DNA of 64,000 nucleotides, from positions 62,001 through 126,000 of the forward strand of contig CALWHT010000025.1 in the NCBI GenBank assembly GCA_944380515.1. Direction: 5' to 3'. This document shows positions 4,766 to 63,882 of this stretch, piece by piece; positions within the stretch are counted from its first letter, which is position 1; each line of letters begins with the position of its first letter. The DNA is from an uncultured Roseburia sp. Lineage in GTDB: Bacteria > Bacillota > Clostridia > Lachnospirales > Lachnospiraceae. The notes under the pieces are model-generated. The model ran no database searches and was not told where the DNA came from. It saw nothing but the letters and a program-made list of their open reading frames with translations. The position numbers and the translations under genes are program-made.

Positions 4766-5410
4766 ATGATGGATCCCTATCAGGTGCTCGGCGTGTCGCC
4801 GAACGCCTCCGATGAAGAAATAAAAAAAGCATATCGTACGCTGAGCAGAAAATATCATCCGGATGCCAATGTGAATAATCCGAACAAGGCGCAGGCGGAA
4901 GAAAAATTTAAAGAAGTGCAGCAGGCGTACGACCAGATTATGAAAGAAAAGCAGCAGGGAGGAAGCTACAGCGGAGGCTACGGCTACAACCACACCTCCG
5001 GAGGCGGTTATGGTTATGGCGGCAGCCGCGGCTACAGCCAGAGTGCGGATTCCCCGCAGCTTCAGGCGGCGGCAAATTATATTGCGAACCGCTGCTATGC
5101 GGAGGCCTTGAATGTATTAAACAGTATTCCTTTCGGGGAACGACGCGCGAGATGGTATTATTACAGCGCCCTTGCCAATCAGGGAGCAGGAAATAATATT
5201 ATTGCAAGAGAGCATGCGGCCCGGGCGGTGGAGATGGAGCCCAGCAATATGGAATATCGCCAGTTCCTTCAGCATCTGGAATATGGCGGCACCTGGTATA
5301 CCAATATGGGAAGCAGCTATGACCGTCCGTATTCCAGCGCCGGGAGCTGGTGCTTGAGCATGCTGTTTTTGAATATGCTTTGTAATTGCTGCTGCTTAAG
5401 GCCCTTCTAA
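4766..5410 (+). CDS. DnaJ (J-domain) co-chaperone-like protein with TPR-like segment
   Basis: This is a 214-residue protein. Residues 2-65 form a J domain ([20 protein letters not shown]) with the HPD triad in RKYHPDAN, which stimulates DnaK ATPase. A Gly/Tyr/Ser-rich linker follows, then two TPR-like helical pairs (about 90-170, [19 protein letters not shown] and [15 protein letters not shown]). The tail is hydrophobic and cysteine-rich and ends CNCCCLRPF. There is no Zn-finger or canonical substrate domain, so it is a type III J-protein. Together with the preceding zinc-ribbon and DUF5685 genes it suggests a DnaK-recruiting membrane-linked complex of unknown purpose. Confidence 0.85.
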
Positions 5411-5448
5411 ATGCATGTCCGCCGTGCGGGCGGGACAATGCGAGGGGC

Positions 5449-5886
5449 TTACCGCCGGTTGGGGTTGGTGTATTTCTCCTCACAGTATTTGCAGCGGTAC
5501 ACCTCTTTCCGGGGGTCGGTCAGAATGAAAATCTGGTCGAGCTCCTGCTCAATGGAGGTGATACAGCGGGGATTTTTGCATTTGATGACATTCTTCACCT
5601 GCTTCGGAAGCTGCAGTTCTTTTTTTGCCACAATCTTATCGTTTTTGATTACGTTGACGGTGATATTGTGGTCGATAAAGCCAAGGATATCAAGGTCGAG
5701 CGCCTCAATCGGGCATTCGACCTTTAAAATATCCTTTTTTCCCATCTTATTGCTTTTGGCATTTTTAATGATGGCAACCGTGCAGTCGAGACGGTCCAAT
5801 TTTAAGTCATGGTAAATCTGCAGGCTCATTCCGGCCTGAATATGATCCAATACGAATCCTTCGTGAATTCCACTGATATTTAACAT
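5449..5886 (-). CDS. pyrI: Aspartate carbamoyltransferase regulatory subunit
   Basis: The 145-residue chain binds nucleotide effectors and holds catalytic trimers together in ATCase. The N-terminal allosteric half runs to about residue 95. The C-terminal zinc domain carries four cysteines as CKNPRC...CKYC (CxxxxC and CxxC), as in E. coli PyrI. The start at 5886 (MLNISGIHEGFVLDHIQAG) fits the family and has AGAAAGGA upstream. The open frame extends 19 codons further, into the pyrB-pyrI gap. It lies 37 bp downstream of pyrB and ends convergently to dnaJ. Confidence 0.95.
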   Translation of the reverse strand: MLNISGIHEGFVLDHIQAGMSLQIYHDLKLDRLDCTVAIIKNAKSNKMGKKDILKVECPIEALDLDILGFIDHNITVNVIKNDKIVAKKELQLPKQVKNVIKCKNPRCITSIEQELDQIFILTDPRKEVYRCKYCEEKYTNPNRR

Positions 5887-5923
5887 AACGGCATCCTTTC
5901 TGTAAACATGTTTCAATCCGGTA

Positions 5924-6844
5924 TTATTCCACGGAAATTCCAAGCAGAGTCAGAATCAGCGCCATCCTGACATATACGCCGTACTGTGCCTGCTTGAAGT
6001 AGACAGCCCTGGGGTCATCGTCTACCTCGACGGAAATTTCGTTGACGCGCGGAAGCGGATGGAGCACCAGCATGTCCTCTTTGGCGAGTGAAAGCTTTTC
6101 CCGGGTCAGGATATAAAAATCCTTCAAACGGACATAATCCTCCTCGTTGAAAAAGCGCTCTTTCTGCACACGGGTCATGTAGAGTACGTCAAGCTCCGGA
6201 ATTGCGTCCTCAAGCCGCTCCACCTCAGTGAAGGGAATTTGTTTTGCCTTTAATACATCCTCGCGGATATAGCTTGGAATCTTAAGCTCCTCCGGTGAAA
6301 TCAGTACGAATCGGATGCCGGGGTAGCGGATTAAGGCGTTGATCAGCGAATGGACGGTACGTCCGAATTTTAAATCGCCGCAGAGCCCGATCGTCATATT
6401 GTCAAGGCGCCCTTTTAAAGAGCGGATCGTCAGCAAATCCGTTAACGTCTGTGTCGGATGCTGATGGCCGCCGTCGCCTGCATTGATGACTGGAATACGT
6501 GATTTTTGGGAAGCTACAAGAGGCGCGCCCTCTTTTGGATGGCGCATAGCACAGATATCTGCGTAGCAGGAAATAATTCGAATCGTATCGGAAACACTTT
6601 CACCTTTTGCTGCGGAACTGGAATCCGCGCTGGCAAATCCCAAAACAGAACCGCCGAGATTTAACATGGCGGCTTCAAAGCTGAGTCTGGTTCGTGTACT
6701 TGGTTCGTAGAAACAGGTGGCAAGTTTTTTGCCGTCACACGCATGTGCGTATTTCTCCGGGTGTTTTTCAATGTCGTTGGCGAGATTTAAAAGCTCGTCC
6801 AACTCGTCGACGGAGAGGTCCAACGGGCTCATTAGATGACGCAT
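5924..6844 (-). CDS. pyrB: Aspartate carbamoyltransferase catalytic subunit
   Basis: The 306-residue enzyme makes carbamoyl-aspartate from carbamoyl phosphate and aspartate, the committed step of pyrimidine synthesis. The carbamoyl-phosphate loop [13 protein letters not shown], the HPTQTLTDL motif and the C-terminal [10 protein letters not shown] are all intact. The length is normal. AAGGAGGA lies 5 nt upstream of the ATG. It forms pyrBI with the regulatory subunit. The promoter and a GC-rich hairpin lie within the 100 bp upstream; no PyrR-type antiterminator sequence was recognised. Confidence 0.97.
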
Positions 6845-6872
6845 ATGATTCCTCCTTCATGTATCGCCGCGC

Positions 6873-6888
6873 GGCCGCCGTCGCGGCC
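6873..6888 (-). promoter_or_regulatory. GC hairpin in pyrBI leader
   Basis: GGCCGC-4 nt-GCGGCC is a perfect 6-bp GC stem in the roughly 55-nt leader, close to the predicted start and about 28 nt before the ATG. There is no U-tract, so it is not an obvious terminator; it may affect mRNA stability or initiation. Confidence 0.35.
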
Positions 6889-6906
6889 TGACCCGGCATT
6901 TTTTCT

Positions 6907-6935
6907 ATCATATAATAATCGCCGGGCAATTTCAA
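6907..6935 (-). promoter_or_regulatory. Sigma-A promoter of pyrBI
   Basis: On the minus strand: TTGAAA (6935-6930), a 17-bp spacer, TATGAT (6912-6907). The start would be near 6900. Confidence 0.65.
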
Positions 6936-6947
6936 GACGAAAATACG

Positions 6948-7343
6948 CTAGAGGGAATCTCTGCGGACGAGGATGCGCTCGAACAAAAGACCGGCGGCCA
7001 TCCAGAAAGGCGCATAATCCAGGCGGATGACGCCGTCAATATTGGTTTTCGCATCGCTGTAGTCCCAGGGACATAAGCCGCGCTTTTTTAAAAAAGAACC
7101 GCTTAAATATTCAAAGGAGAAGATACCGAGCGTGTATATTCCGCCGCGCACCAGGGTGGGCAATTCCTTGATTTTTTTATATACGGGGGCGATGACGGCC
7201 GCCATTCCGTAAATCGGGAACATCCATATGGAGGTACGGCCAATCATCCGTTTGTCGTGTTTTAAAAGGGAGCCGGTGGAGGTGAACAGTATTTCCATAC
7301 ACCAGCCGGTCAGGCCGCAAATGAAAAAATCCTTTCCGTACAT
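6948..7343 (-). CDS. Putative membrane protein, CmpB-type (PF06541-like)
   Basis: The 131-residue protein is hydrophobic, with about three to four membrane segments. Its motifs GRTSIWMFPIYGMAAVIAP, an SGSFLKKRG turn and the WDYSDAKTNIDGVIRLDYAP block match the small clostridial family labelled putative ABC-transporter permease CmpB. That family name is weakly founded. No ATPase or partner is next to it; it is flanked by pyrB upstream and a divergent murE. The transported or sensed molecule is unknown. Confidence 0.75.
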   Translation of the reverse strand: MYGKDFFICGLTGWCMEILFTSTGSLLKHDKRMIGRTSIWMFPIYGMAAVIAPVYKKIKELPTLVRGGIYTLGIFSFEYLSGSFLKKRGLCPWDYSDAKTNIDGVIRLDYAPFWMAAGLLFERILVRRDSL

Positions 7344-7517: not shown

Positions 7518-9113
7518 ATGCAGTTAAGCAGATTACTTGGGCAAATTTCATACGAAAGCGTGCAGGGGAGCCACGACCTTATCATAACGGATATCTGTTA
7601 CCATTCCGGAAAAGTAAAGCGGGGTTCCCTGTTTGTCTGTATAAGGGGTCAGGAGTCCGATGGACATGATTATATCTGGGATGCGGTAAAGACCGGAGCG
7701 TTCGCGGTGGTGGTGGAAGCGTCCGCCGTGGTGGAGACGAGAAATGAAAAGCTCATTTACACCGATGCCGGTCGCATCAGAATCAATGAGCTTGTACATA
7801 ATTACGGGGTGTCCGTGATTGTGGTAAAGGATACCAGGACGGCACTGTATGAGCTTTCATCGGCGTTTTTTGACTATCCGGCGGAAAAGCTTACCATGAT
7901 AGGAATTACCGGGACAAAGGGAAAGACTACGACGGCCTTTCTGACAGCCGGAATATTGCGGGAGGCGGGCTACCGCGCCGGGGTCATCGGCACGATTTGG
8001 ATTGATACCGGGAGGGATATCATCACTGCCTCCCATACAACGCCGGAATCCTATGATATTCAGAAATACCTGGCGAAGATGGTGGAGAGCGGTTGTGACT
8101 GCTGTGTGATGGAGGTTTCCTCGCAGGGCCTTAAGATGCAGCGTACGGCCGGTATTTTATTTGACATTGGAGTATTTTTAAATATCGAACCGGATCACAT
8201 CGGAAAAGGAGAGCACGCGTCTTTTTCGGAATACCTGTACTGTAAAAGCCGGCTGATGCGCCAGTGCCGCATCGGCATTGTCAACAGGGATGACTCCAAT
8301 GTGGATAAAATATTAAAGGGACATACCTGCAGGGTGGAAACCTTTTCCGCAAAAGAAGGGGAGGTATTGACGTATCCGGCGGATGTCACGGCGGAAAAGC
8401 TGTCGTATTATATGATAAAGGGAAAGCTGTACAGCTGTTTTGAAGTCCGCTGGAACAACTGCCTTCCGGGGGAGGCCGGAACCTGGAACGGAAGAACCCT
8501 TTCTCTTCAGATGCAGCTTCCCGGGGCCTTTAACGTATCGAATGCGCTGGCTGCCGTTTCCATCGCGAGTCATTTCCATGTGACGGAGGGACAGATCAAG
8601 CGGGCGCTGCGGAGGCAGGCGGTGCCCGGGCGCTGTGAAAACGTGGGGATATCCGATGATTATGTATTTTTGATTGATTACGCGCACAATGAGATGAGTC
8701 TTCGGAACCTTCTTATGACGCTGAGGGAATTTCATCCCGCCCGGCTTGTCGTAATTTTCGGATGCGGCGGAAACCGTTCGCCCTTAAGGCGTCAGAGGAT
8801 GGGAGAGACGGCGGGACGCATGGCGGATTTTACCATACTGACCTCCGATAATCCAAGATGGGAGAACCCTGAGCGGATTCTTGACGACATCGAGGCGGGC
8901 ATCCGTGGCACTTCGGGGCGCTATGTGCGGATTGCAGACCGCAGGGAGGCGGTGGCCTATGCCGTTTCCAACGCAAAGCCGGGAGATATCATCGTACTGG
9001 CGGGCAAGGGGCATGAGGGTTATCAGGAAATACGCGGCGTGAAATATCCCATGAGCGAGCAGGAACTGGTGGAGGACGCGTTAAAAAAGAAGAGGAATCA
9101 CACATACGGATGA
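7518..9113 (+). CDS. murE: MurE-type Mur ligase (UDP-MurNAc-tripeptide synthetase), copy 1
   Basis: This 531-residue cytoplasmic ligase would add the third amino acid to UDP-MurNAc-L-Ala-D-Glu using ATP. It has the N-terminal UDP-binding domain, the ATP loop GITGTKGKTTT (about residues 128-138), HTTPESYDI, MEVSSQGLKM, IDYAHNEMSL, the meso-DAP-type DNPR motif (near 444; DNPRWENP) and GKGHEGYQEI (near 496). This is one of two murE-like genes in the window; the other, 46 kb away, lies next to dapF. Compared with that one it has a longer central domain (about 20 residues more). It heads a run leading into priA, 9 bp downstream. Which copy carries the main activity cannot be told from sequence. 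Confidence 0.9.
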   Translation: MQLSRLLGQISYESVQGSHDLIITDICYHSGKVKRGSLFVCIRGQESDGHDYIWDAVKTGAFAVVVEASAVVETRNEKLIYTDAGRIRINELVHNYGVSVIVVKDTRTALYELSSAFFDYPAEKLTMIGITGTKGKTTTAFLTAGILREAGYRAGVIGTIWIDTGRDIITASHTTPESYDIQKYLAKMVESGCDCCVMEVSSQGLKMQRTAGILFDIGVFLNIEPDHIGKGEHASFSEYLYCKSRLMRQCRIGIVNRDDSNVDKILKGHTCRVETFSAKEGEVLTYPADVTAEKLSYYMIKGKLYSCFEVRWNNCLPGEAGTWNGRTLSLQMQLPGAFNVSNALAAVSIASHFHVTEGQIKRALRRQAVPGRCENVGISDDYVFLIDYAHNEMSLRNLLMTLREFHPARLVVIFGCGGNRSPLRRQRMGETAGRMADFTILTSDNPRWENPERILDDIEAGIRGTSGRYVRIADRREAVAYAVSNAKPGDIIVLAGKGHEGYQEIRGVKYPMSEQELVEDALKKKRNHTYG

Positions 9114-35156: not shown

Positions 35157-35188
35157 AAACAGAGGGTGTCCGCGGACACCCTCTGTTT
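35157..35188. terminator. Bidirectional terminator between nan operon and spoVB-like gene
   Basis: A perfect palindrome: AAACAGAGGGTGTCC (35157-35171) with GGACACCCTCTGTTT (35174-35188), 2-nt centre. It has A/T ends on both sides and overlaps the stop codon of the minus-strand gene. Confidence 0.85.
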
Positions 35189-36509
35189 AAGTCAGCTTGC
35201 GGTAAAGGATGAGGATTGCCAGCACTGCGACCACAATCTGGCTTGCCAGAATCCCCCACAGATAGCTTTTGATTCCAAAAACCGGAACAGCCAGCAGGAC
35301 AAACAAAATCCGTACCGTACAGGCGATGAGATTTAACTCGAAGGTAATGCCGGGGTAGCCCAGCCCGTGCAGGATGCTGCTTAAGGTGGAGCTTAAATAA
35401 AGAAACGGACAGATCCAGCCGAGGGTGGTGATAAAGGCTCCCGCAAGTGCATTGCCAAACAGGAAATTTCCCATAAAATTGCCGCTTATCAAAAATGCGG
35501 CGGTGCATAAAAAGCCGAGCAGCAGGCAGGATTGGATGGTTTTTCGTACCGTTTTATGGATCAGCGTGCGGTTTCCGGATGCCTGCGCCTCCGAAATAGT
35601 GGGCAGCAGCAGGACGGAAATAGAATTTGTCACAACCGAAGGGAACATAATAACCGACATTGCCATTCCGGTCAGAATACCGTATACGCCAAGGGCTTCC
35701 GAGTTTGTATAGCCAAAGGCGCGCAGGCGGTTCGGAATCATAATATTTTCAAAGCTGGAGAACAGATTTAAAACCACACGGTTTGCCGTCAGGGGGAGCG
35801 CCATAGAGGTCAGGTTGCGGGCGCAGGAAAGAAACTGCATTTTATGAGGACTTCGGGAGGTTTTTGCCGTTTGGCGGAAAACGCTGACGGAAACAAGCGT
35901 GCTGGCGACCTCACCCAATACAAGCCCCCAGATTGTCATGGGGAGTGTCAGGGTTTTTCCGTGGCTTAAGCTCACCTGATACATCAGGTAAACGCTTCCG
36001 ACCCGTGCGAGCTGTTCCGCGAGCTGGCAGAGAGAGGGAACCGCTGTTTTTTTTAAGCCGTAATAATAACCGTTAATGCAGGCGTGGATGCAGCTTGGCA
36101 CAAAGGAAAAAGAAAGCACCGTAAGCAGAGGCGCGCAGCGTGAATCACCAAGCCAGGCGGACGCGATAAAATCGGCATTGCGGTAGATGATGACGCCGGT
36201 GAGCACGGAGAGCGCCAGTGAGAGAACAAGCCCGACGGACAGGTAAGTACCTGCACCGGCGGGATTTTTTCTGCCCATTTCCATGGAGACAAATTTTGAG
36301 ATGGATGTCTGGATTCCGGCGGCGGTGATGGCAAAACCGAGCGCCATGACTGGGGAAATCAGCTGGTAAATTCCCAGCCCCTCTGCACCAATCGTGCGCG
36401 ACAGGAATATTCTATAGAAGAAACCTATAATGCGGGTGAGAACTCCGGCTAAGGTGAGCAGCAAGGTTCCGGTAATAAAGGTACTTTTCGTCATGGAAAA
36501 ATGTTTCAA
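35187..36509 (-). CDS. SpoVB-like polysaccharide/lipid II flippase (MVF family)
   Basis: The 440-residue protein has about twelve membrane segments. The opening TFITGTLLLTLAGVLTRIIGFFYRIFLSR and IGAEGLGIYQLISPVMALG are characteristic of the SpoVB/PST group of the MOP superfamily. SpoVB is needed for spore cortex synthesis and probably flips a peptidoglycan precursor. The protein is shorter than Bacillus SpoVB (about 518 residues), so a paralogue with a different cargo is possible. It is convergent to the nan operon. Confidence 0.85.
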   Translation of the reverse strand: MKHFSMTKSTFITGTLLLTLAGVLTRIIGFFYRIFLSRTIGAEGLGIYQLISPVMALGFAITAAGIQTSISKFVSMEMGRKNPAGAGTYLSVGLVLSLALSVLTGVIIYRNADFIASAWLGDSRCAPLLTVLSFSFVPSCIHACINGYYYGLKKTAVPSLCQLAEQLARVGSVYLMYQVSLSHGKTLTLPMTIWGLVLGEVASTLVSVSVFRQTAKTSRSPHKMQFLSCARNLTSMALPLTANRVVLNLFSSFENIMIPNRLRAFGYTNSEALGVYGILTGMAMSVIMFPSVVTNSISVLLLPTISEAQASGNRTLIHKTVRKTIQSCLLLGFLCTAAFLISGNFMGNFLFGNALAGAFITTLGWICPFLYLSSTLSSILHGLGYPGITFELNLIACTVRILFVLLAVPVFGIKSYLWGILASQIVVAVLAILILYRKLT

Positions 36510-47430: not shown

Positions 47431-48351
47431 ATGGCAAATTTATTTCAGGCTTTGTTAGCGGATTTTTCCTCCGGCAGGGGAAGAACGGTACAGACACGGA
47501 GAAGAACGAGGATGCATGAGGTAACGGAGACGCAGGGGAAGGCGCAGGCTGTTTTGCAGGAGGAGGGACAGACCGGGGCAGAACAGGAAAGGGTACAGGA
47601 GAACGTGGAAAAAGAAGATTTATTATTAAGCCAGATTGACGAATTCCGGGAGAAGGCAAAGCAGCTTCAGATGCTGCTGGCCTCCAAGGAGAGCAAGGTA
47701 CAGGAATTGCAGTCGCTTGTCAACGAGAGACAGGATAAGGCGCAGGAATTGGAGCAGATTTTAACGGAGCGTCAGGAAGAGGCGACAAGGATTGAGACCG
47801 ACTTTAATATAAAGGTGGATCAGCTGGTGCGCAAGGTTACGGACAAGCTGACAGAAATAGAAAGAGGCATTTCCGGCCAGGTGGCGGAGGTCCGCCAGAT
47901 GAGTGAACAGCAGTTTGCGTCAAACCGACAGTTCGGTGAGGAGCAGGCGGCGGCAGGCAGAAAGCTTCATCAGGAACAGATCGCCGAGGTGAAAAAGCTG
48001 AGCGAGGAACAGCTTGCAACGAATAAGCAGTTTCTTGAGGAGCAGGCAATCGCGAATAAAAAGCTGAGCGAGGGGCAGATCGCCGAGGTGAAGGAGCTGC
48101 TCGAAAGCGCAACGGCACAGCTGGAATCCATCAAGACAGACCTTTCCGAGAAGGTACATACCGAAAATGTCAAGTGTTACCGGAATATTCAGGATTTGTT
48201 TAACGAGTTTGATTCGAAAATCGAAAAGATGGATGAAATGGAATCGGGCGTCGGCTCGGTCAAGGGCTATGTGAAATGCCTGACATGGTTTTCCATTCTG
48301 AATTTTGTCGTGTTGATTGGATTTATTTTATATTCCGTAGTTTTTGCATAA
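47431..48351 (+). CDS. Long coiled-coil protein with C-terminal membrane anchor, unknown function
   Basis: This 306-residue protein has a basic N-terminus (about 13-28), then Gln/Glu-rich heptads from about 45 to 285 (e.g. LLASKESKVQELQSL). One membrane helix lies close to the C-terminus (about 285-303, WFSILNFVVLIGFILYSVVF), so it is tail-anchored with the bulk in the cytoplasm. Within it is a tandem repeat of about 33 residues, SEQQFASNRQFGEEQ... then SEEQLATNKQFLEEQ..., each ending QIAEVK. The DNA repeat is also visible at about 47900-48100. No catalytic motif is seen. A scaffold or polarity/division-linked role is conceivable, but nothing proves it. Confidence 0.75.
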   Translation: MANLFQALLADFSSGRGRTVQTRRRTRMHEVTETQGKAQAVLQEEGQTGAEQERVQENVEKEDLLLSQIDEFREKAKQLQMLLASKESKVQELQSLVNERQDKAQELEQILTERQEEATRIETDFNIKVDQLVRKVTDKLTEIERGISGQVAEVRQMSEQQFASNRQFGEEQAAAGRKLHQEQIAEVKKLSEEQLATNKQFLEEQAIANKKLSEGQIAEVKELLESATAQLESIKTDLSEKVHTENVKCYRNIQDLFNEFDSKIEKMDEMESGVGSVKGYVKCLTWFSILNFVVLIGFILYSVVFA

Positions 48352-53845: not shown

Positions 53846-55381
53846 ATGAAATTAAATCAAATTTGTAACGGATTGGAATATACCTGCCTGCAGGGCAGCA
53901 TGGAGGCCGAGGTGCGGGACATTGTCTACGATTCCAGGAAGCTTGCGAAGGAAACGATGTTTGTCTGTATGGCGGGAGCCGTGACGGACGGACATCGCTA
54001 CATTCCCGATGCCGTGGAAAAGGGCGCGTCCGTCATTGTGGTGGAGCGCCGCAAAGAGGCGGAAGGGATCCCCGGGGAAATCACGGTGCTGCTTGTGGCG
54101 TCCACGCGCCGCGCGCTCGCACTCATGTCGGCGGCGCTCTTCGGCTACCCGGCAAAAAAGCTTGTGACGATCGGCGTGACCGGAACGAAGGGAAAGACGA
54201 CGACAACCTATATGATGAAAAATGTGCTGGAGCTCGCCGGCAAAAAGGTCGGCCTCATCGGAACCATCGGCGTGATGATTGGGGATGAGGAGCTTCCCTC
54301 GAAAAATACGACGCCGGAATCCTATGAGCTGCACCGCATGTTTGCCGCAATGGTCGAGGCCGGCTGTGAGTACGTGGTGATGGAGGTTTCCTCGCAGGGG
54401 CTGAAAATGGACCGCACGGCGGGGATTTTATTCGATTACGGCGTATTTACCAATCTTTCCCCCGACCATATCGGGCCGACGGAGCACGCTTCATTTGAGG
54501 AATATCTGGAGTGTAAAAGCCTGCTGTTCCGTCAGTGCCGGGTGGGGATCATCAATGCGGACGACGCCCACAGCGAAGCGATTGCGGCGGGGCATACCTG
54601 TGAAATCCACAGCTTCGGAGTTTTGGACGCATCGGAGGGAGCGGAGAAGCAGTTCCTCGGGAAACCGGTGGATTTACTCGCCTCAGATAGCGGCTTTTTG
54701 AAAGAGGACGGAAAGCTCGGCATGCATTTTACAGTGAAGGGCTGTATGGACTGCGCCGTTAAGCTTCACATCCCAGGCAGGTTTTCGGTGTACAATGCAC
54801 TTGTCACGATGCTGGTCTGCCATATGGCGGGCATTCCGCAGCAGGCGATTTTAGAGGGACTTTCGCGGGTTCAGGTCAAGGGGCGCGTTGAAATGCTGCC
54901 GGTATCGAAGAATTACTATCTGATTATTGATTATGCCCACAATGAGGTCAGCACAAGGAGTGTTCTGACGACGCTGCTCGAATATCATCCGAAGCGGCTG
55001 ATTTGTGTTTACGGGGGCGGCGGCAACCGTTCGAAGCTGCGCCGGTACGACATGGGAGAGGTCACGGGTGAGATGGCGGATTTATGCGTCCTGACCTGCG
55101 ATAATCCAAGGGATGAGGAAATCCGCGATATTAACGCCGATATTAAAGTGGGACTTGCAAAGAGCGGCGGAAAGTATATTGAGATTGACGACAGAAAGGA
55201 AGCGATTGCCTACTGCATGACCCATGCAAAGCCCGGGGATATGATTGTCCTGCTGGGAAAGGGGCATGAAAATTACCAGGAAATCAAGGGCGTCAAATAC
55301 CATTTTGACGAGCGGGAGGCCGTTGCCGAAATATTGGAGGAGCTTAAGGAGGGAAAACGCCGGCGCGTACAGGCCGAGTGA
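53846..55381 (+). CDS. murE: MurE-type Mur ligase (UDP-MurNAc-tripeptide synthetase), copy 2
   Basis: The 511-residue protein carries GVTGTKGKTTTTYMMK (near 112), NTTPESYEL, MEVSSQGLKMDRTAGI, IDYAHNEVSTRS, DNPRDEEI (near 419) and GKGHENYQEIKG (near 471). DNPR is the meso-DAP recognition motif, but the usual following E-(D/N)-P is DEEI here. The central domains are clearly paralogous to copy 1 at 7.5 kb. Its pairing with dapF argues that this copy charges meso-DAP. The gene ends at a strong terminator. Confidence 0.9.
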   Translation: MKLNQICNGLEYTCLQGSMEAEVRDIVYDSRKLAKETMFVCMAGAVTDGHRYIPDAVEKGASVIVVERRKEAEGIPGEITVLLVASTRRALALMSAALFGYPAKKLVTIGVTGTKGKTTTTYMMKNVLELAGKKVGLIGTIGVMIGDEELPSKNTTPESYELHRMFAAMVEAGCEYVVMEVSSQGLKMDRTAGILFDYGVFTNLSPDHIGPTEHASFEEYLECKSLLFRQCRVGIINADDAHSEAIAAGHTCEIHSFGVLDASEGAEKQFLGKPVDLLASDSGFLKEDGKLGMHFTVKGCMDCAVKLHIPGRFSVYNALVTMLVCHMAGIPQQAILEGLSRVQVKGRVEMLPVSKNYYLIIDYAHNEVSTRSVLTTLLEYHPKRLICVYGGGGNRSKLRRYDMGEVTGEMADLCVLTCDNPRDEEIRDINADIKVGLAKSGGKYIEIDDRKEAIAYCMTHAKPGDMIVLLGKGHENYQEIKGVKYHFDEREAVAEILEELKEGKRRRVQAE

Positions 55382-57531: not shown

Positions 57532-58758
57532 ATGGCAAAAAAAGAGTTGGAGCTTTATATCCACATTCCGTTTTGCATGAAAAAATGCAATTACTGTGAT
57601 TTTTTATCCTTCACTGCCGACGAGGATACACAGCGGCGGTACATTGAGGCGTTAAACAGGGAAATCGCCTTTTACGGAAAGCACTGCAAAGATTATGTGC
57701 TTTCCACCGTCTATATCGGGGGCGGAACGCCCTCCTGGCTTGGGGAGGAGGAAATCGCCGCGGTGATGGAGACGGTGTACGCCGCCTTTTCGGTGAAGGA
57801 GGACGCAGAGGTTTCGCTGGAATGCAATCCCGGGACGGTCACTGCCCGCAAGCTTTCGGTGTACCGGCAGAGCGGGATCAACCGCTTAAGCATCGGGCTG
57901 CAATCGACGGATAACCGGGAATTAAAGATGCTGGGGCGCGTTCATACCTTTGAGCAGTTTTTAAAAACCTACGAGCTGGCGCGGGAGGCGGGGTTTGCCA
58001 ATATCAATGTGGATTTGATGAACTCCCTGCCGGGACAGACGACGGATTCCTTTTTGGCAACACTGCAGAAGGTATGCAGGCTTCGGCCGGAGCATGTCTC
58101 CGCGTATTCTCTGATCATCGAAAAAGGCACGCCGTTTTACGATTTATATAAATTTGACGCGGTAAAGCAGGCGGCCGGCATGCAGACGGATGCCCTCCCG
58201 ACGGAGGAGGAGGTCTGCGCGATGACGAAAATGACGGAACGCGTACTGGCGGAGCACGGCTATGTGCATTATGAAGTGTCAAATTTTGCGCTCCCCGGTT
58301 ATGCGTGCCGCCATAATATCGGCTACTGGAAACGGGCGGAATATCTCGGTGTGGGGCTGGGAGCGGCTTCTCTGCTGTCAAATATCCGCTACACCAATAC
58401 GGGGGAGCTGTACGCTTATCTGGAGGGGTCAGCGTGCCTTCGTCCGGGATTGTGGGAGAATCCAAAGGAGGACGGACAGACGGAGGAGCTTCCGGCGGTC
58501 AATCTCCATGTATCTGTCGAGCGGATTGACCGCCGCGGACAGATGGAGGAATTTATGTTTCTGGGACTTCGGATGATGGATGGTATTTCCAGACAGGAGT
58601 TTGAGGAGTGCTTCGGCGTACCGATTGAGGCGGTCTATCAGGAGACGATGGCACATCTGCAGGAGGAGGGGCTGTTGATCAAGCGCGCGGGAAGAATTTA
58701 TCTGAGCGAGCGGGGACAGGAGGTAAGCAACTACGCACTTGCGCAGTTCCTTTCTTAA
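57532..58758 (+). CDS. hemW: HemW-type radical SAM protein (oxygen-independent coproporphyrinogen oxidase-like)
   Basis: The 408-residue protein has the radical SAM motif HIPFCMKKCNYCDF (CxxxCxxC), VYIGGGTPSWL, GINRLSIGLQS and VDLMNSLPGQTTDSF, with a C-terminal HemN-like domain. HemW is thought to insert heme into proteins rather than to make it. It follows lepA by 2 bp. Its stop is followed 45 bp later by the amidase-deacetylase fusion. Confidence 0.93.
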   Translation: MAKKELELYIHIPFCMKKCNYCDFLSFTADEDTQRRYIEALNREIAFYGKHCKDYVLSTVYIGGGTPSWLGEEEIAAVMETVYAAFSVKEDAEVSLECNPGTVTARKLSVYRQSGINRLSIGLQSTDNRELKMLGRVHTFEQFLKTYELAREAGFANINVDLMNSLPGQTTDSFLATLQKVCRLRPEHVSAYSLIIEKGTPFYDLYKFDAVKQAAGMQTDALPTEEEVCAMTKMTERVLAEHGYVHYEVSNFALPGYACRHNIGYWKRAEYLGVGLGAASLLSNIRYTNTGELYAYLEGSACLRPGLWENPKEDGQTEELPAVNLHVSVERIDRRGQMEEFMFLGLRMMDGISRQEFEECFGVPIEAVYQETMAHLQEEGLLIKRAGRIYLSERGQEVSNYALAQFLS

Positions 58759-58803
58759 TCTTAAGAAAATGTTTCGTGGCATTTTTCGGTGCGTTAGGGT
58801 ACA

Positions 58804-60402
58804 ATGAATACCAGAGTAATCATGGATGGTAAAACTATGGATTGGAATATGCAAAGGCGAAGGAAAAAGCGTTTAAGGAATCTGGTATGCATTGTCTATT
58901 GTATGATACAGCTTGCTGTGGTGCTGGGGGCATTTTGGGGCATGGATAAGCTGCTCGCGCGCATTGTTCCCGCGAGCATCGATTTGTCGGCGATTGAGGG
59001 CAGTATCGTGGTGCTGGACGGCGACGGGGATTCCCTGGATGAGGACAAGCTCACCGTATGTGTGGATGCGGGCCATGGCGGAAAGGATAACGGCTCTGAT
59101 TACCGGCTTCGCTATGAGAAAAACGACAATTTAAAAATAGCGCAGGCCGTCGCCTCGTATCTGACAGGACAGGGCGTGCAGGTGATTATGACGCGGACGG
59201 ACGACACCTTTTTATCGTTGGAGGAACGAACCGAATTTGCCAATCAGAACGGGGCGGATTATCTGATTTCTCTCCACCGCAATACGGGTGACGGGAACGG
59301 TGTGGAAACCTGGATATACAGCAATGCGGATGAGGAGACGAACGCGCTGGCGGCCAATATCATGGACAATCTGGATGCAGCGGGAATTCAGCGGAACCGG
59401 GGCGTAAAGCAGGGAACGCAGAACAGTGATTCCGGGGACTATTACATAAATCTCCATTCGGACATGCCGTCCTGTATTGTGGAGCTTGGCTTTATGAACA
59501 GTACGGCGGATAATCAGCTTTTTGACGCGAATCTGAGCGATTACGCAAAGGCAATCGGCGACGCGGTCCTGACGACTTATGAGGCATACGGGGAGAGCGG
59601 AGCGCAGGCGGACACAGAGGCTGCCACGGAAACCGGGGGCACGGAGCAGACGGGCGGAGCCGGGAATGCCAATATGGGACAGGTGCTGCAAAATACTGTC
59701 ATAGAGAATGTTGACGCGCTGGATGCTTCCGGTAAGGAATGGGGACAGGGAACAAATGTGGACGAGAAAAACCGTCCGACCGGAGCGCTGTTGTATCAGG
59801 AGCAGTACGGCAAATATAATGCGTATTTTATCGGTGAGGAGAGCCGGAATATTTACCTCACGTTTGATGAGGGGTACGAATACGGGCAGACGGAAAGTAT
59901 TTTAAATACGTTAAAGGAAAAAGGCGTTTCGGCGACTTTTTTTATTACGGAGCCTTACGCAAAGTCAAATCCTGAGCTGGTGCGCCGGATGATTGACGAG
60001 GGGCATGTGGTAGGAAATCACAGCGTGACGCATCCGGCGGCAGGACTGCCGTCCCTGTCGGCGGAGCAGCAGAAAAATGAAGTGACCGGGAATCACGCCT
60101 ATGTCAAGGAGAATTTCGGCTATGACATGTATCTGTTCCGCTATCCGACCGGACGCTTCAGTGAGCAGTCCCTGGCAATCGTGAATAACTGTAATTATAA
60201 GAGTATTTTCTGGAGCTTTGCGTATCTGGATTATGACGTGGAAAATCAGCCGGATGAGGCGGAGAGTCTTGGGAAGCTTAAGGACAGGCTGCATCCGGGG
60301 GCAATCTATCTGCTCCATGCGGAGTCTGAGACGAACGCTGCAATTTTGGGTGATTTTATCGATGCAGTCCGTGCGGCGGGGTACGGATTTTTGAATTTTT
60401 AA
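58804..60402 (+). CDS. N-acetylmuramoyl-L-alanine amidase fused to PdaA-type polysaccharide deacetylase
   Basis: This 532-residue protein has two enzymes. After a basic N-terminus and a membrane anchor (about 26-50) comes an Amidase_3 domain (about 83-260): VCVDAGHGGKDNG, YEKNDNLKIA, SLHRNTGDG and VELGFMNS give three zinc ligands and the catalytic Glu. A Thr/Glu/Gly linker (about 262-290) leads to a NodB deacetylase (about 325-532) with TFDEGYE (near 353), VVGNHSVTHP (HxxxH), FRYPTGRFSE and LHPGAIYLLHA, closest by eye to PdaA. In Bacillus, CwlD (amidase) then PdaA (deacetylase) form muramic-delta-lactam of spore cortex. The fusion suggests one protein does both, outside the membrane. ATG 58804 is not certain; 58822 and 58837 are alternatives, and TACAAT at 58800-58805 could be a -10. 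Confidence 0.88.
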   Translation: MNTRVIMDGKTMDWNMQRRRKKRLRNLVCIVYCMIQLAVVLGAFWGMDKLLARIVPASIDLSAIEGSIVVLDGDGDSLDEDKLTVCVDAGHGGKDNGSDYRLRYEKNDNLKIAQAVASYLTGQGVQVIMTRTDDTFLSLEERTEFANQNGADYLISLHRNTGDGNGVETWIYSNADEETNALAANIMDNLDAAGIQRNRGVKQGTQNSDSGDYYINLHSDMPSCIVELGFMNSTADNQLFDANLSDYAKAIGDAVLTTYEAYGESGAQADTEAATETGGTEQTGGAGNANMGQVLQNTVIENVDALDASGKEWGQGTNVDEKNRPTGALLYQEQYGKYNAYFIGEESRNIYLTFDEGYEYGQTESILNTLKEKGVSATFFITEPYAKSNPELVRRMIDEGHVVGNHSVTHPAAGLPSLSAEQQKNEVTGNHAYVKENFGYDMYLFRYPTGRFSEQSLAIVNNCNYKSIFWSFAYLDYDVENQPDEAESLGKLKDRLHPGAIYLLHAESETNAAILGDFIDAVRAAGYGFLNF

Positions 60403-60468
60403 AAACACCGATTGACAGAAGCACTGAAAAATTATAAGATAATGGCAGTCAGAAAGGCGGGTGAAAGG

Positions 60469-60489
60469 ATGATTATTATTTCCTGTTAA
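60469..60489 (+). CDS. Six-codon leader peptide (uORF) MIIISC
   Basis: ATG ATT ATT ATT TCC TGT TAA is preceded by AAAGGCGGG (about 60453-60461). It lies 239 bp before an Lsa-type resistance gene. Its last codons form one half of the inverted repeat 60478-60489/60557-60568. Ribosome stalling on it under antibiotic would change folding of the leader. Role inferred from position and structure. Confidence 0.6.
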   Translation: MIIISC

Positions 60490-60568
60490 TCAAACGAACT
60501 GAAAAGCATATCAAAAAAGAGTGTCCGATGCGGGCACAGGTTTGGTATGTCTCGTTTTAACAGGAAAT
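60478..60568 (+). promoter_or_regulatory. Leader RNA structure for antibiotic-responsive attenuation
   Basis: ATTTCCTGTTAA (60478-60489) is perfectly complementary to TTAACAGGAAAT (60557-60568). Between them is a smaller hairpin GTGTCCG-ATG-CGGGCAC (60521-60537). Together with the downstream terminator this makes an on/off leader whose first strand lies in the uORF. Confidence 0.65.
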
Positions 60569-60624
60569 CTGATATCTTTTCACGGCTGCCGTATTGCGGA
60601 AAGAACAGCAAAGTGTGCGATTGT

Positions 60625-60658
60625 AAAAAAGATGTGAGGAAGACCTTGCATCTTTTTT
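60625..60658 (+). terminator. Attenuator terminator before the Lsa-type gene
   Basis: AAAAAAGATG (60625-60634) pairs with CATCTTTTTT (60649-60658); the inner AGG/CCT extends the stem. The T run marks a Rho-independent terminator 70 nt before the start codon. Confidence 0.7.
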
Positions 60659-60727
60659 CGTGTTGTGTCGGAAATAAACCTGTTACATCACGGGGCATGC
60701 CGTCGATGCGTAAGGAGTGTGATGGAA

Positions 60728-62317
60728 ATGTCCAGAATAGATGTGAGCCATTTGACGTTTTATTATGACGGAAGTTATGAAAATGTGTTTGAGGATGTGT
60801 CGTTTCAGATTGACACCGATTGGAAGCTGGGATTTATCGGGAGAAACGGCAGGGGAAAAACGACGTTTTTAAAGCTTCTGCTCGGTGAGTATGAATATCG
60901 GGGGACGATTTCTTCCGATGTCGTGTTTGACTATTTTCCGTGCAGGGTGAGCGATAAGACGAAGCAGACCATCGAGGTTGTGGAGGAGCTTGCCCCGGAC
61001 TATGAGTTTTGGGAGCTGTGCCGGGAGTGGTCTTATTTAAAGGGGGCAGACGATGTGTGGTTCCGCCCGTTTGAGACGCTAAGCAACGGAGAGCAGACGA
61101 AACTGCTGCTTGCCGTGCTGTTTTTGCGGCAGGAGCATTTTCTTTTGATTGACGAGCCGACGAATCATCTGGATATGGAGACAAGGCAGGTGGTGTGTGA
61201 GTATCTGCGGCGGAAAAAGGGATTTATCCTGGTATCTCATGACCGGGCGTTTTTAGACGGCTGTATCGACCATGTACTCTCGATAAACAGGCAGGGAATT
61301 GAGGTCGTGCAGGGGAATTTTTCGAGCTGGTGGGAAAATAAAGAGCGGCAGGACGCCTATGAACTGGCGGAGCATGAAAAGCTGAAAAAGGACATTAAGC
61401 GTCTTTCGGCTGCGGCCAGACAGGCGAAAGGCTGGGCGGATGCCGTGGAAGCCACCAAAATCGGAAAAAAATCCTTTGAAAATGGTGAAAAGGTCGGACT
61501 GCGCGATTATATCGGGGAAAAATCAAGGCGGATGCAGAAGCGCCGCAAAAACCTGGAACGGCGGCGGGAAAAGGAGCTCGAAGAAAAGTCGAAGCTTTTA
61601 AAAAATGTGGAATCCCAGGAAGAACTCCGGCTTATAACTGCCTCCTATCACAAGGATTTGCTGGTGGAGGCCAAAGCGGTTTCTCTGTCTTACCTCATGG
61701 AAGATGGCGCGGGACAAAAGGAGGTATGCAGCGGTCTTTCATTTGAACTGCGGCAGGGGGACTGTCTGGTGTTAAAGGGGCCAAACGGCTGTGGAAAGTC
61801 AACCGTGCTGCAGGCGGTGCTTGCCGCCGCGGGGGCAGTGCCGGCGTATGCAAAGCAAACGGGGGCCTGCCGAAAGCCGCAGATCGAAAAAGGGAACCTT
61901 ACCGTTTCTTCGGGGCTTAAGATATCCTATGTCTCCCAGGACGCATCCTGGTTATGCGGGAGGCTTGCGGATTATATCGCAGAGGAAAAAATAGATGAAA
62001 CTCTGTTTAAGCAGTTTCTGCGGAAATTGGATTTTTCCCGTTCCCAGTTTGAAAAGCGCATGGAGGAATTTTCCGAGGGACAGAAAAAGAAGGTATTGCT
62101 CGCAAGGAGCCTCTGTGACGCGGCGCATGTGTATATCTGGGATGAACCGCTGAACTTTATCGATATTTTCTCGCGCATGCAGCTCGAGGAGCTCATTTTG
62201 GCGTATCGTCCGACGATGCTTATGGTAGAGCATGATAAGAGCTTTGTGGAGCGCGTGGGCACAAAGGTTGTGGAGCTTTCACAGGCTTGCAATTCAAAGA
62301 AAAGCATGTTACCATAG
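60728..62317 (+). CDS. Lsa-family ABC-F ribosomal protection protein
   Basis: The 529-residue soluble protein has two ABC domains. NBD1: GRNGRGKTTFL, LSNGEQTKLLL, LLIDEPTNHLDM. An inter-domain linker (about 185-300, with KLKKDIKRLSAAARQAKGWA and KKRRKNLERRREKELE-like helices) reaches the ribosomal peptidyl-transferase region. NBD2: GPNGCGKSTVL, FSEGQKKKVLLARSL, YIWDEPLNFIDIFSRMQ. The FSEGQKKK and DEPLNFIDIFSR wording is a hallmark of Lsa/Vga-like resistance proteins against lincosamides, streptogramin A and pleuromutilins. ATG 60728 was chosen because AAGGAG (60712-60717) is upstream. The uORF/terminator leader supports antibiotic-inducible expression. The exact drug spectrum is not deducible. 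Confidence 0.9.
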   Translation: MSRIDVSHLTFYYDGSYENVFEDVSFQIDTDWKLGFIGRNGRGKTTFLKLLLGEYEYRGTISSDVVFDYFPCRVSDKTKQTIEVVEELAPDYEFWELCREWSYLKGADDVWFRPFETLSNGEQTKLLLAVLFLRQEHFLLIDEPTNHLDMETRQVVCEYLRRKKGFILVSHDRAFLDGCIDHVLSINRQGIEVVQGNFSSWWENKERQDAYELAEHEKLKKDIKRLSAAARQAKGWADAVEATKIGKKSFENGEKVGLRDYIGEKSRRMQKRRKNLERRREKELEEKSKLLKNVESQEELRLITASYHKDLLVEAKAVSLSYLMEDGAGQKEVCSGLSFELRQGDCLVLKGPNGCGKSTVLQAVLAAAGAVPAYAKQTGACRKPQIEKGNLTVSSGLKISYVSQDASWLCGRLADYIAEEKIDETLFKQFLRKLDFSRSQFEKRMEEFSEGQKKKVLLARSLCDAAHVYIWDEPLNFIDIFSRMQLEELILAYRPTMLMVEHDKSFVERVGTKVVELSQACNSKKSMLP

Positions 62318-62345
62318 AAACAGCTTCACAGAGAGCAGGGGTTCC

Positions 62346-62494
62346 GTCAGTGGTATTCCTCCTTTCTGCGGAAGAAAACAGATACACGAGTACAAAAATA
62401 TGGCACTGACGCCAAAATCACCGATGACGGCGATTGAGGGGAAAGGTATGGCAAATCATAAGGATATTTCGGCGGCGCAGAGACTGCGGCGCCG
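62346..62494 (+). promoter_or_regulatory. Structured leader upstream of the hydrogenase-maturation operon
   Basis: Three helices stand in order: GTCAGTG/CACTGAC (62346-62352 with 62404-62410), AATC-A-CCG-4 nt-CGG-C-GATT (62416-62435), and a GC-rich stem (62470-62494, 11 bp with one mismatch, AGA loop). An intrinsic terminator follows. The layout is that of a riboswitch or attenuator. No known class was recognised. An in-frame ATG at 62448 with GGGGAAAGG upstream also lies here. Confidence 0.45.
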
Positions 62495-62498
62495 TCAG

Positions 62499-62533
62499 AA
62501 GGCTGTACCTGAAAACGGGTGCGGCCTTTTTTT
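62499..62533 (+). terminator. Intrinsic terminator in the leader of the TM1266-hydE operon
   Basis: AAGGCTGTACC (62499-62509) pairs with GGGTGCGGCCTT (62517-62528, G-U pairs included), then T to 62533. It stands 26 bp before the ATG of the next gene. Confidence 0.7.
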
Positions 62534-62558
62534 CTTTTTACAGGTTATGGAGGATTTT

Positions 62559-62834
62559 ATGGAGACAAGAGTAGCGTTAATCGGAATTATTGTGGAAAAT
62601 ACGGATTCCACGCCGCAGTTAAATCAGCTTTTGCATGAGTACGGCGATTTTATCATCGGCAGGATGGGGATTCCGTACCGGGAGCGCGGCGTGCATGTCA
62701 TCAGCGTGGTGATTGACGCGCCGCAGGATGCCATCAATGCGCTGTCGGGAAAAATCGGGCGGCTCTCCGGAATTACGGCAAAGACTGTTTATTCCAATGT
62801 GGCGGGAAAGGCGGAAAAAAATGCTGCAGAATAA
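62559..62834 (+). CDS. TM1266-family iron-only hydrogenase system putative regulator
   Basis: The 91-residue ACT/NikR-like small protein starts METRVALIGIIVENTDST with GGAGG 5 nt upstream. LHEYGDFIIGRMGIPYRERGVHVISVVIDA and GRLSGITAKTVYSN match the family usually coded beside hydE/hydG/hydF. Its role in hydrogenase maturation or regulation is assumed from this linkage. An in-frame upstream ATG (62448) would add 37 residues, but reading it requires passing the terminator. It overlaps hydE by 14 nt. Confidence 0.9.
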   Translation: METRVALIGIIVENTDSTPQLNQLLHEYGDFIIGRMGIPYRERGVHVISVVIDAPQDAINALSGKIGRLSGITAKTVYSNVAGKAEKNAAE

Positions 62835-63882
62835 AAGAAATACAGGCTCTGCGCTCATAGAAAAAATCGCCGAAACCAAAGACATCACAAGGGAGGAGCT
62901 TTCGTACCTGCTTTCTGGGGAGGATGAGGAAATCATTCAGGAGCTTAACCGAAAGGCAAGGGAAACGGCGGATGAGATTTACGGGAAAAAGGTATTTATC
63001 CGAGGGCTGATTGAATTTACCAATTATTGTAAAAATGACTGTCTTTACTGCGGCATCCGAAAGAGTAACCGCAGGGCGGAGCGTTACCGTCTGACGGAGG
63101 AGGAAATTTTATCCTGCTGTGAGAGCGGCTATGATCTGGGTTTTCGCACCTTCGTGCTGCAGGGCGGGGAGGATGCTTTTTTTACCGACGAAAAAATCTG
63201 CGGCATTGTAAAACAAATCAAGTCCCGCTATCCCGACTGTGCCGTGACGCTTTCCATAGGAGAAAAATCAAGGGAGAGCTATCAGGCGTATTTTGACGCG
63301 GGGGCAGACCGGTATCTGCTGCGCCATGAGACGGCGGACGCGGCGCACTACGGGAGCCTTCACCCGAAGGAAATGTCATGGGAAAACAGAATCCGCTGCC
63401 TTTGGGATTTAAAGGCCATCGGCTATCAGACCGGCTGCGGGTTTATGGTAGGTTCCCCGCATCAGACGGTGGATACGCTGTATGAGGATTTGCAGTTTAT
63501 CCGTAAATTGCAGCCGCAGATGGTCGGGATTGGGCCGTTTATCCCGCAGAAGGACACACCCTTTGGGGGCGAGGCTGCGGGGACGATGGAAATGACGCTG
63601 CGGCTTCTTTCCATTATCCGGCTGCTGCATCCTCCCGTGCTGCTTCCGGCGACGACGGCGCTTGGGACCATTCACCCGAAAGGGAGGGAACTCGGCATTT
63701 TGGCGGGCGCAAACGTGGTAATGCCGAACCTTTCCCCCGTGGGGGTGAGGGAGAAATATAAGCTGTACGACAATAAAATCTGTACCGGAGACGAGGCTGC
63801 GGAGTGCCGCTTTTGCATGGAAAACCGGATGAAGGGCATCGGGTACGAGGTAGCGGTGGACCGGGGAGATTTTCGTGGCTGA
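62821..63882 (+). CDS. hydE: [FeFe]-hydrogenase H-cluster radical SAM maturase HydE
   Basis: The 353-residue TIM-barrel enzyme helps build the dithiomethylamine-bridged di-iron subcluster. The SAM cluster motif is CKNDCLYCGIRKSN (CxxxCxxC), followed by FVLQGGEDAFFTDE, TLSIGEKSRESY, YLLRHETAD and FMVGSPHQTVDTLYEDL. The late CRFCMENR cysteines match the optional second cluster seen in some HydE. Start ATG 62821 has AAAGGCGG upstream and lies inside the end of the TM1266 gene. Confidence 0.95.
   Translation: MLQNKRNTGSALIEKIAETKDITREELSYLLSGEDEEIIQELNRKARETADEIYGKKVFIRGLIEFTNYCKNDCLYCGIRKSNRRAERYRLTEEEILSCCESGYDLGFRTFVLQGGEDAFFTDEKICGIVKQIKSRYPDCAVTLSIGEKSRESYQAYFDAGADRYLLRHETADAAHYGSLHPKEMSWENRIRCLWDLKAIGYQTGCGFMVGSPHQTVDTLYEDLQFIRKLQPQMVGIGPFIPQKDTPFGGEAAGTMEMTLRLLSIIRLLHPPVLLPATTALGTIHPKGRELGILAGANVVMPNLSPVGVREKYKLYDNKICTGDEAAECRFCMENRMKGIGYEVAVDRGDFRG

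Follow-up and report, generated by a model that had tools for sequence, protein, structure and literature searches.

An amidase–PdaA-like deacetylase fusion in Roseburia: architecture, distribution and relation to CwlD and PdaA

Muramic-delta-lactam marks the spore cortex for breakdown at germination. In B. subtilis and C. difficile its synthesis involves two proteins, the amidase CwlD and then the CE4 enzyme PdaA; according to excerpts of one study, these two suffice for lactam formation, and PdaA acts only after peptide removal (PMC10116595). Here we analyze a 64,000-nucleotide stretch of an uncultured Roseburia genome (contig CALWHT010000025.1; hereafter the window), in which a single reading frame joins an amidase to a PdaA-like deacetylase. 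Could one chain perform both steps, and does it take the place of the separate enzymes? The original prediction raised the possibility of a self-contained muramic-delta-lactam synthase, in which fusion would channel the newly peptide-free muramic acid to the deacetylase and make separate regulation unnecessary. A search of the openly licensed literature, judged by titles and the starts of abstracts, found no description of an amidase–PdaA fusion.

Architecture of the fused chain

The reading frame and its parts are as follows.
58804..60402, + strand: fusion reading frame, 532 aa; from ORF reading, with upstream and genus alignments favoring ATG 58837 (521 aa)
58885..58953, + strand: hydrophobic stretch of the N-terminal membrane helix, residues ~28-50, preceded by basic residues; assigned by eye
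59056..59568, + strand: Amidase_3 domain, residues 85-255; from Pfam, alignment and Foldseek
59596..59667, + strand: disordered linker, residues 265-288, pLDDT under 50
59740..60390, + strand: PdaA-like CE4 deacetylase domain, residues 313-529; from Pfam, PdaA model, alignment and Foldseek

The frame at 58804-60402 (+) contains no internal stops and encodes the membrane helix, amidase, linker and deacetylase without interruption. With both Pfam domains and the catalytic residues present, the anchored single chain that had been predicted is borne out. A frameshift between the domains, named in advance as evidence to the contrary, was not found, and the frame is likewise unbroken in a congener at 97% identity; intact frames in this relative and in other genera rule out a frameshift or assembly artefact as the origin of the fusion, which is a real, conserved bifunctional architecture. 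Translation more likely starts at ATG 58837, giving 521 residues, than at 58804, because a -10-like hexamer (58800-58805) overlaps the upstream ATG and the alignments of most genus relatives to the window protein begin only at about residue 8-18.

Both halves score far above chance, with 138.5 bits for Amidase_3 (PF01520; Pfam cut-off 27) and 111.9 bits for Polysacc_deac_1 (residues 347-467; Pfam cut-off 23.1). H91, E105, H158 and E227 of the amidase half, which from knowledge of the Amidase_3 family we take to be the zinc ligands and catalytic glutamate, do not vary across 29 aligned fusions. The deacetylase half of the window protein has D355, H406, H410, R446 and H505, corresponding by a hand count along the alignment to D73, H124, H128, R163 and H222 of B. 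subtilis PdaA (TIGR02884; 1ny1, 1w17, 1w1a), with which it shares the fold, the catalytic aspartate, two metal-binding histidines, the motif arginine and the general-acid histidine. Excerpts of the published work report that D73 is required for deacetylation and not for cyclization (PMC10116595), and that H222 is required for cyclization (PMC12444981). SwsB, like the deacetylase half a CE4-type protein and in the excerpted account the cyclase of the muramic-delta-lactam pathway, has asparagine at the catalytic aspartate position (PMC12444981), whereas the fusion keeps the aspartate (D355). The fusion motifs TFDEGYE and FRYPxGxFS contrast with TFDCGYE and YRPPQGKYS in the stand-alone PdaA of the same genome; as the latter has glutamine in place of the second arginine of B. 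subtilis PdaA (RPPRG), that arginine was dropped as a PdaA marker.

An AlphaFold2 model built with 29 sequences (mean pLDDT 83.8, pTM 0.50) predicts a long N-terminal helix (residues 11-54) and two well-predicted domains, joined by the low-pLDDT linker at 265-288. Both modeled domains are sound, but their mutual orientation is not fixed by the model at this pTM. In Foldseek searches, the top match of the deacetylase half was B. subtilis PdaA 1ny1 (target TM-score 0.88), with 1w17 also at 0.88. The list for the amidase half is led by C. difficile CD2761 (4rn7, 0.88), Cwp6, AmiC2, LytH and CwlV, with C. difficile CwlD (7rag) only at rank 17. CD2761, Cwp6 (5j72) and CwlV (1jwq) have the amidase fold and residues seen in the fusion; unlike the fusion, none of these matches has a reported deacetylase domain. 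C. difficile CwlD, according to excerpts of PMC8496864, holds zinc only with GerS, a protein described there as Peptostreptococcaceae-specific, unlike CD2761, which holds zinc alone.

Not every fusion keeps both sets of residues. Of 32 fused rows, 27, including that of the window, retain the five checked deacetylase positions (D, H, H, R, H), whereas those of G181, G158, G098, L105 and L127 have lost residues; the damaged fusions form one sub-lineage (L043, L044, L045, L105, L127). The amidase alignment covers all of these but L127, and in those four the amidase residues are intact. G181, G158 and G098 also hold a second, unfused deacetylase at 58-63% identity (residues were inspected only for G098, locus L019). 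Such losses, together with the extra deacetylases, would fit a protein whose activity lies in the amidase, the PdaA-like domain serving chiefly to bind peptide-free glycan for targeting or holding, with its own catalysis secondary. We regard this as quite improbable for the fusion in general, as a pure binder needs none of the five residues that most fusions, including the present one, have kept.

Lineages of the two halves and the upstream region

In a 118-row deacetylase tree (149 domain rows thinned by hand, 16 added; a quick tree with long branches flagged), the fused deacetylases belong to a lineage of TFDEGYE type, most of whose members are unfused; its sister group is the lineage that contains the genome's own stand-alone PdaA (L005). 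By eye, unfused members of this sister lineage carry other N-terminal parts or just an anchor. Two Peptostreptococcaceae-type genomes have one member near each of the two lineages, and all four proteins exceed the PdaA cut-off, which suggests no great distance between the sister lineage and proven PdaA chemistry. A relative of the deacetylase half, at 47% identity, is encoded in a faecal phage record of 15 kb (MT836426.1, 5413-6096). A phage or plasmid origin of the fusion as a whole was rejected: of the records that matched, 149 from phages and 507 from plasmids, none covered 80% of the query.

The amidase tree (56 rows; a quick tree with SH-aLRT only and long branches flagged) groups most fused amidases with genes from G235 and G247 that encode an amidase alone. 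CwlD lies far from these, and as the genome's own CwlD is a long-branch outgroup, only that distance is informative. On this sequence comparison, the amidase half falls outside the CwlD lineage. Counting fusion events gives four changes on the deacetylase tree, one of them forced by starred branches, and four on the amidase tree, two of them forced. The CwlD–PdaA pathway and the fusion thus share folds and the order of an amidase followed by a PdaA-type CE4 enzyme on MurNAc, but the pathway uses two proteins, whereas the fusion is one chain with a non-CwlD amidase and a deacetylase from the sister lineage of PdaA.

An alternative is a vegetative or division-stage wall remodeler with no cortex role, in which the amidase would trim or separate strands and the deacetylase would mark or protect the bared glycan as muramic acid. 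We consider it somewhat unlikely as the function of the fusion. Its case begins with an amidase half that is closer to CD2761, Cwp6 and CwlV than to CwlD, and with the amidase-only relatives, whose genomes (G235 and G247) are both spoIVA-negative and CwlD-negative. The region upstream of the fusion also bears on it.

57532..58758, + strand: hemW-like gene (radical SAM, HemN_C), directly upstream of the fusion; from Pfam
58760..58767, + strand: CTTAAGAA palindrome, a conserved upstream element; from alignment of upstream regions
58776..58781, + strand: weak -35-like hexamer GTGGCA, 18-nt spacer to the -10; assigned by eye
58800..58805, + strand: -10-like hexamer TACAAT, sigma-A-like; from the upstream alignment

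In the genus, tblastn of the fusion loci places a hemW gene beside the fusion in 14 of 18; three of the remaining loci, L084, L091 and L095, offer little or no sequence upstream, and the fourth, L085, lacks the gene. Outside the genus we saw no shared neighbors of the fusion, except one gene common to G181 and G158, presumably pyruvate oxidoreductase-like by its similarity to the window's own copy. Across the 18 aligned upstream regions of fused loci (two are near duplicates, L176 of L089 and L078 of the window), CTTAAGAA precedes the -10-like hexamer by exactly 40 nt in nine and by 50-51 nt in three, and is absent in six; the hexamer itself takes the form TAnAAT or TATGAT. As a consensus reading, this conserved hexamer of a putative promoter looks like a sigma-A element and not like a forespore promoter, which favors the wall remodeler, although sigma-A promoters can serve early sporulation genes too. 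By-eye comparison with the upstream regions of the genome's own small acid-soluble spore protein, pdaA and cwlD genes, made in search of a sporulation promoter, gave nothing. A wide regulon for the upstream element was rejected: the exact pattern TCTTAAGAAANNATTCA has only six matches in 60 genus genomes, five upstream of the fusion and one elsewhere (G247), compared with one match for a reversed control pattern, and the window's own site differs from the exact pattern.

Distribution beside CwlD, PdaA and sporulation genes

We searched a family sample of 200 genomes, drawn evenly and each with its own genus code, and a genus sample of 60; whole-genome protein searches scored the best candidates per genome (the best 7 of up to 23). 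The fusion occurs in 8 of the 200 family genomes (G000, the window's own, and G177, G082, G143, G147, G181, G158 and G098) and in 18 of the 60 genus genomes (partial in G246). One further genus genome, G249, has a split form (L219), with the amidase starting at GTG (5196-6002) and the deacetylase at ATG (5999-6970) in an ATGA overlap; each of the two separate proteins opens with basic residues plus a hydrophobic segment, read by eye as a helix. This coupled pair points to a shared task of the two halves. Among 70 unfused deacetylases (loci from L078 on), an adjacent amidase frame was found beside two, L093, which is the G249 pair, and L148, where the amidase belongs to another lineage. A different arrangement occurs in the spoIVA-negative genome G197 (L046, 4254-6275), where amidase and PdaA-like genes lie 81 nt apart and the deacetylase has TFT for TFD, placing threonine at the catalytic aspartate, the same position as the SwsB change.

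The genome carrying the window (3.07 Mb, 99.85% complete) has four Amidase_3 and four Polysacc_deac_1 matches, with the fusion counted in both. One is a stand-alone PdaA (L005 1285-2118, - strand, 277 aa) that scores 300.7 bits against the TIGR02884 cut-off of 298. Another is a CwlD-type amidase (L002 1384-2079, + strand, 231 aa) at 207 bits, 14.5 under the TIGR02883 cut-off of 221.55; this is an ordinary CwlD score for the family, as only 13 of 200 genomes pass that cut-off while 130 match at E 1e-40 or better. The two halves of the fusion fall below the same cut-offs, with 88.7 bits for the amidase half against the CwlD model and 217.7 bits for the deacetylase half against the PdaA model. 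Stand-alone cwlD and pdaA, whose presence with sporulation promoters was to speak against the original prediction, are thus both in this genome, promoters aside, and the claim that the fusion removes the need for them finds no support here. What survives of the self-contained lactam synthase is the single chain, its two intact active sites and an order of domains that fits the pathway; replacement of CwlD and PdaA does not.

The wider samples bear this out for CwlD, whose replacement is ruled out by its presence in all eight family fusion genomes; in the genus it accompanies 17 of 18 fusions as well as the split pair, the exception being G256 (61% complete). For PdaA, general replacement is ruled out by the window's own genome, but replacement is possible in G177, G082, G203 and split G249. 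In G177 and G082, for example, the fusion is the only PdaA-model match among the matches listed (down to about 148 bits), and CwlD and spoIVA are present. Elsewhere in the family, 45 of 134 spoIVA-positive genomes show neither PdaA lineage in our searches, and 43 of those 45 have CwlD, which draws attention to the many relatives that bear sporulation genes and CwlD without a recognized PdaA. A spoIVA-positive congener that lacks the fusion has a PdaA-like match interrupted by two TAA stops (G222:C2:10470-11045), perhaps a decayed pdaA.

Is the fusion tied to sporulation? The window's genome carries spoIVA and small acid-soluble spore protein genes. In the family, spoIVA is above cut-off in 134 of 200 genomes and in 78 of 83 with the PdaA lineage; fusion genomes have spoIVA in 8/8, CwlD in 8/8 and PdaA in 3/8, and genomes with only an unfused sister-lineage deacetylase have spoIVA in 9 of 16. 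(Family members were assigned to the PdaA or sister lineage by scores, and by tree only where sequences were fetched.) Among genus genomes at least 90% complete, spoIVA is found in 13 of 13 with the fused or split form (matched in two pieces in G251) versus 13 of 18 others (Fisher p 0.058, kinship ignored). With genomes of any completeness included, spoIVA is found in 16 of the 18 genus genomes that carry the fusion; the two without are G221 and G246 (68% and 81% complete). Stand-alone PdaA accompanies the fusion or split pair in 11 of 13 genus genomes versus 5 of 18 without (p 0.003, kinship ignored), and in 11 of 13 versus 5 of 13 when only spoIVA-positive genomes are taken (p 0.04, kinship ignored); these counts treat the decayed G222 match as absent and G242 by score alone. 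The trend is opposite in the whole family, with PdaA in 6 of 17 genomes with the sister deacetylase lineage versus 72 of 117 (p 0.063, kinship ignored). These co-occurrences are consistent with a sporulation-linked role but do not prove it.

For the wall remodeler, these counts cut both ways. The absence of spoIVA from 7 of the 16 genomes with unfused deacetylase relatives favors it, as does the fact that a canonical CwlD and PdaA are already there for the cortex. Against it stand the presence of spoIVA in every fusion genome at least 90% complete and the co-occurrence of the fusion with stand-alone PdaA in the genus.

Proposed function

The reading we prefer, which we hold to be evenly balanced between right and wrong, is of an accessory, membrane-anchored, two-step peptidoglycan enzyme that acts in a sporulation-gene-bearing host; its activities, their order, its topology and its link to sporulation are all inferred. 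The helix would anchor the enzyme in the membrane, facing outwards. The Amidase_3 half would first cut the stem peptide off MurNAc, and the PdaA-like half, on its flexible linker, could then take the N-acetyl group from the bared MurNAc. The same half may also close the muramic-delta-lactam ring, so that the product could be the lactam or only muramic acid. The fusion would work alongside, not in place of, stand-alone CwlD and PdaA.

Several observations favor this two-step enzyme: complete catalytic residues in both domains, nearest folds in PdaA and an Amidase_3 enzyme, the coupled G249 pair, co-occurrence with spoIVA and, in the genus, with PdaA, and the pattern in G177 and G082. Others weigh against it, including scores of both halves under the CwlD and PdaA cut-offs, the spoIVA-negative genomes among those with unfused relatives, the G197 pair with its replaced aspartate and no spoIVA, the five damaged fusions, the family-wide PdaA trend, the sigma-A-like -10 and the lack of spoIVA in G221 and G246. 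A bolder version, which we think unlikely, is that one polypeptide, expressed from a promoter of its own and outside the forespore programme, converts intact peptidoglycan to muramic-delta-lactam unaided, providing a second, separately controlled source of the cortex mark or of lactam in the growing wall.

More broadly, the one-chain enzyme, the coupled two-gene form and the deacetylase-damaged sub-lineage offer material for testing whether the two steps require proximity. The same forms allow one to ask whether gut Lachnospiraceae make the cortex mark in a way unlike Bacillus.

Other features of the window deserve brief mention. The SpoVB-like gene noted in the original prediction is real (Polysacc_synt/MatE; 35187-36509, - strand) and lies about 22 kb from the fusion. 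A pair of Mur ligases with identical Pfam domain composition is encoded at 7518-9113 and 53846-55381, and a 306-aa reading frame at 47431-48351 has no Pfam match at 1e-5. At 62232-63882, a TM1266-like putative iron-only hydrogenase regulator is followed by a radical SAM gene. Finally, the interval between the fusion and an ABC-F-like gene (60402-60665 and 60665-62317, respectively) contains, by eye, a possible short leader reading frame near 60470 and, near 60640, a hairpin followed by T residues that resembles an attenuator.
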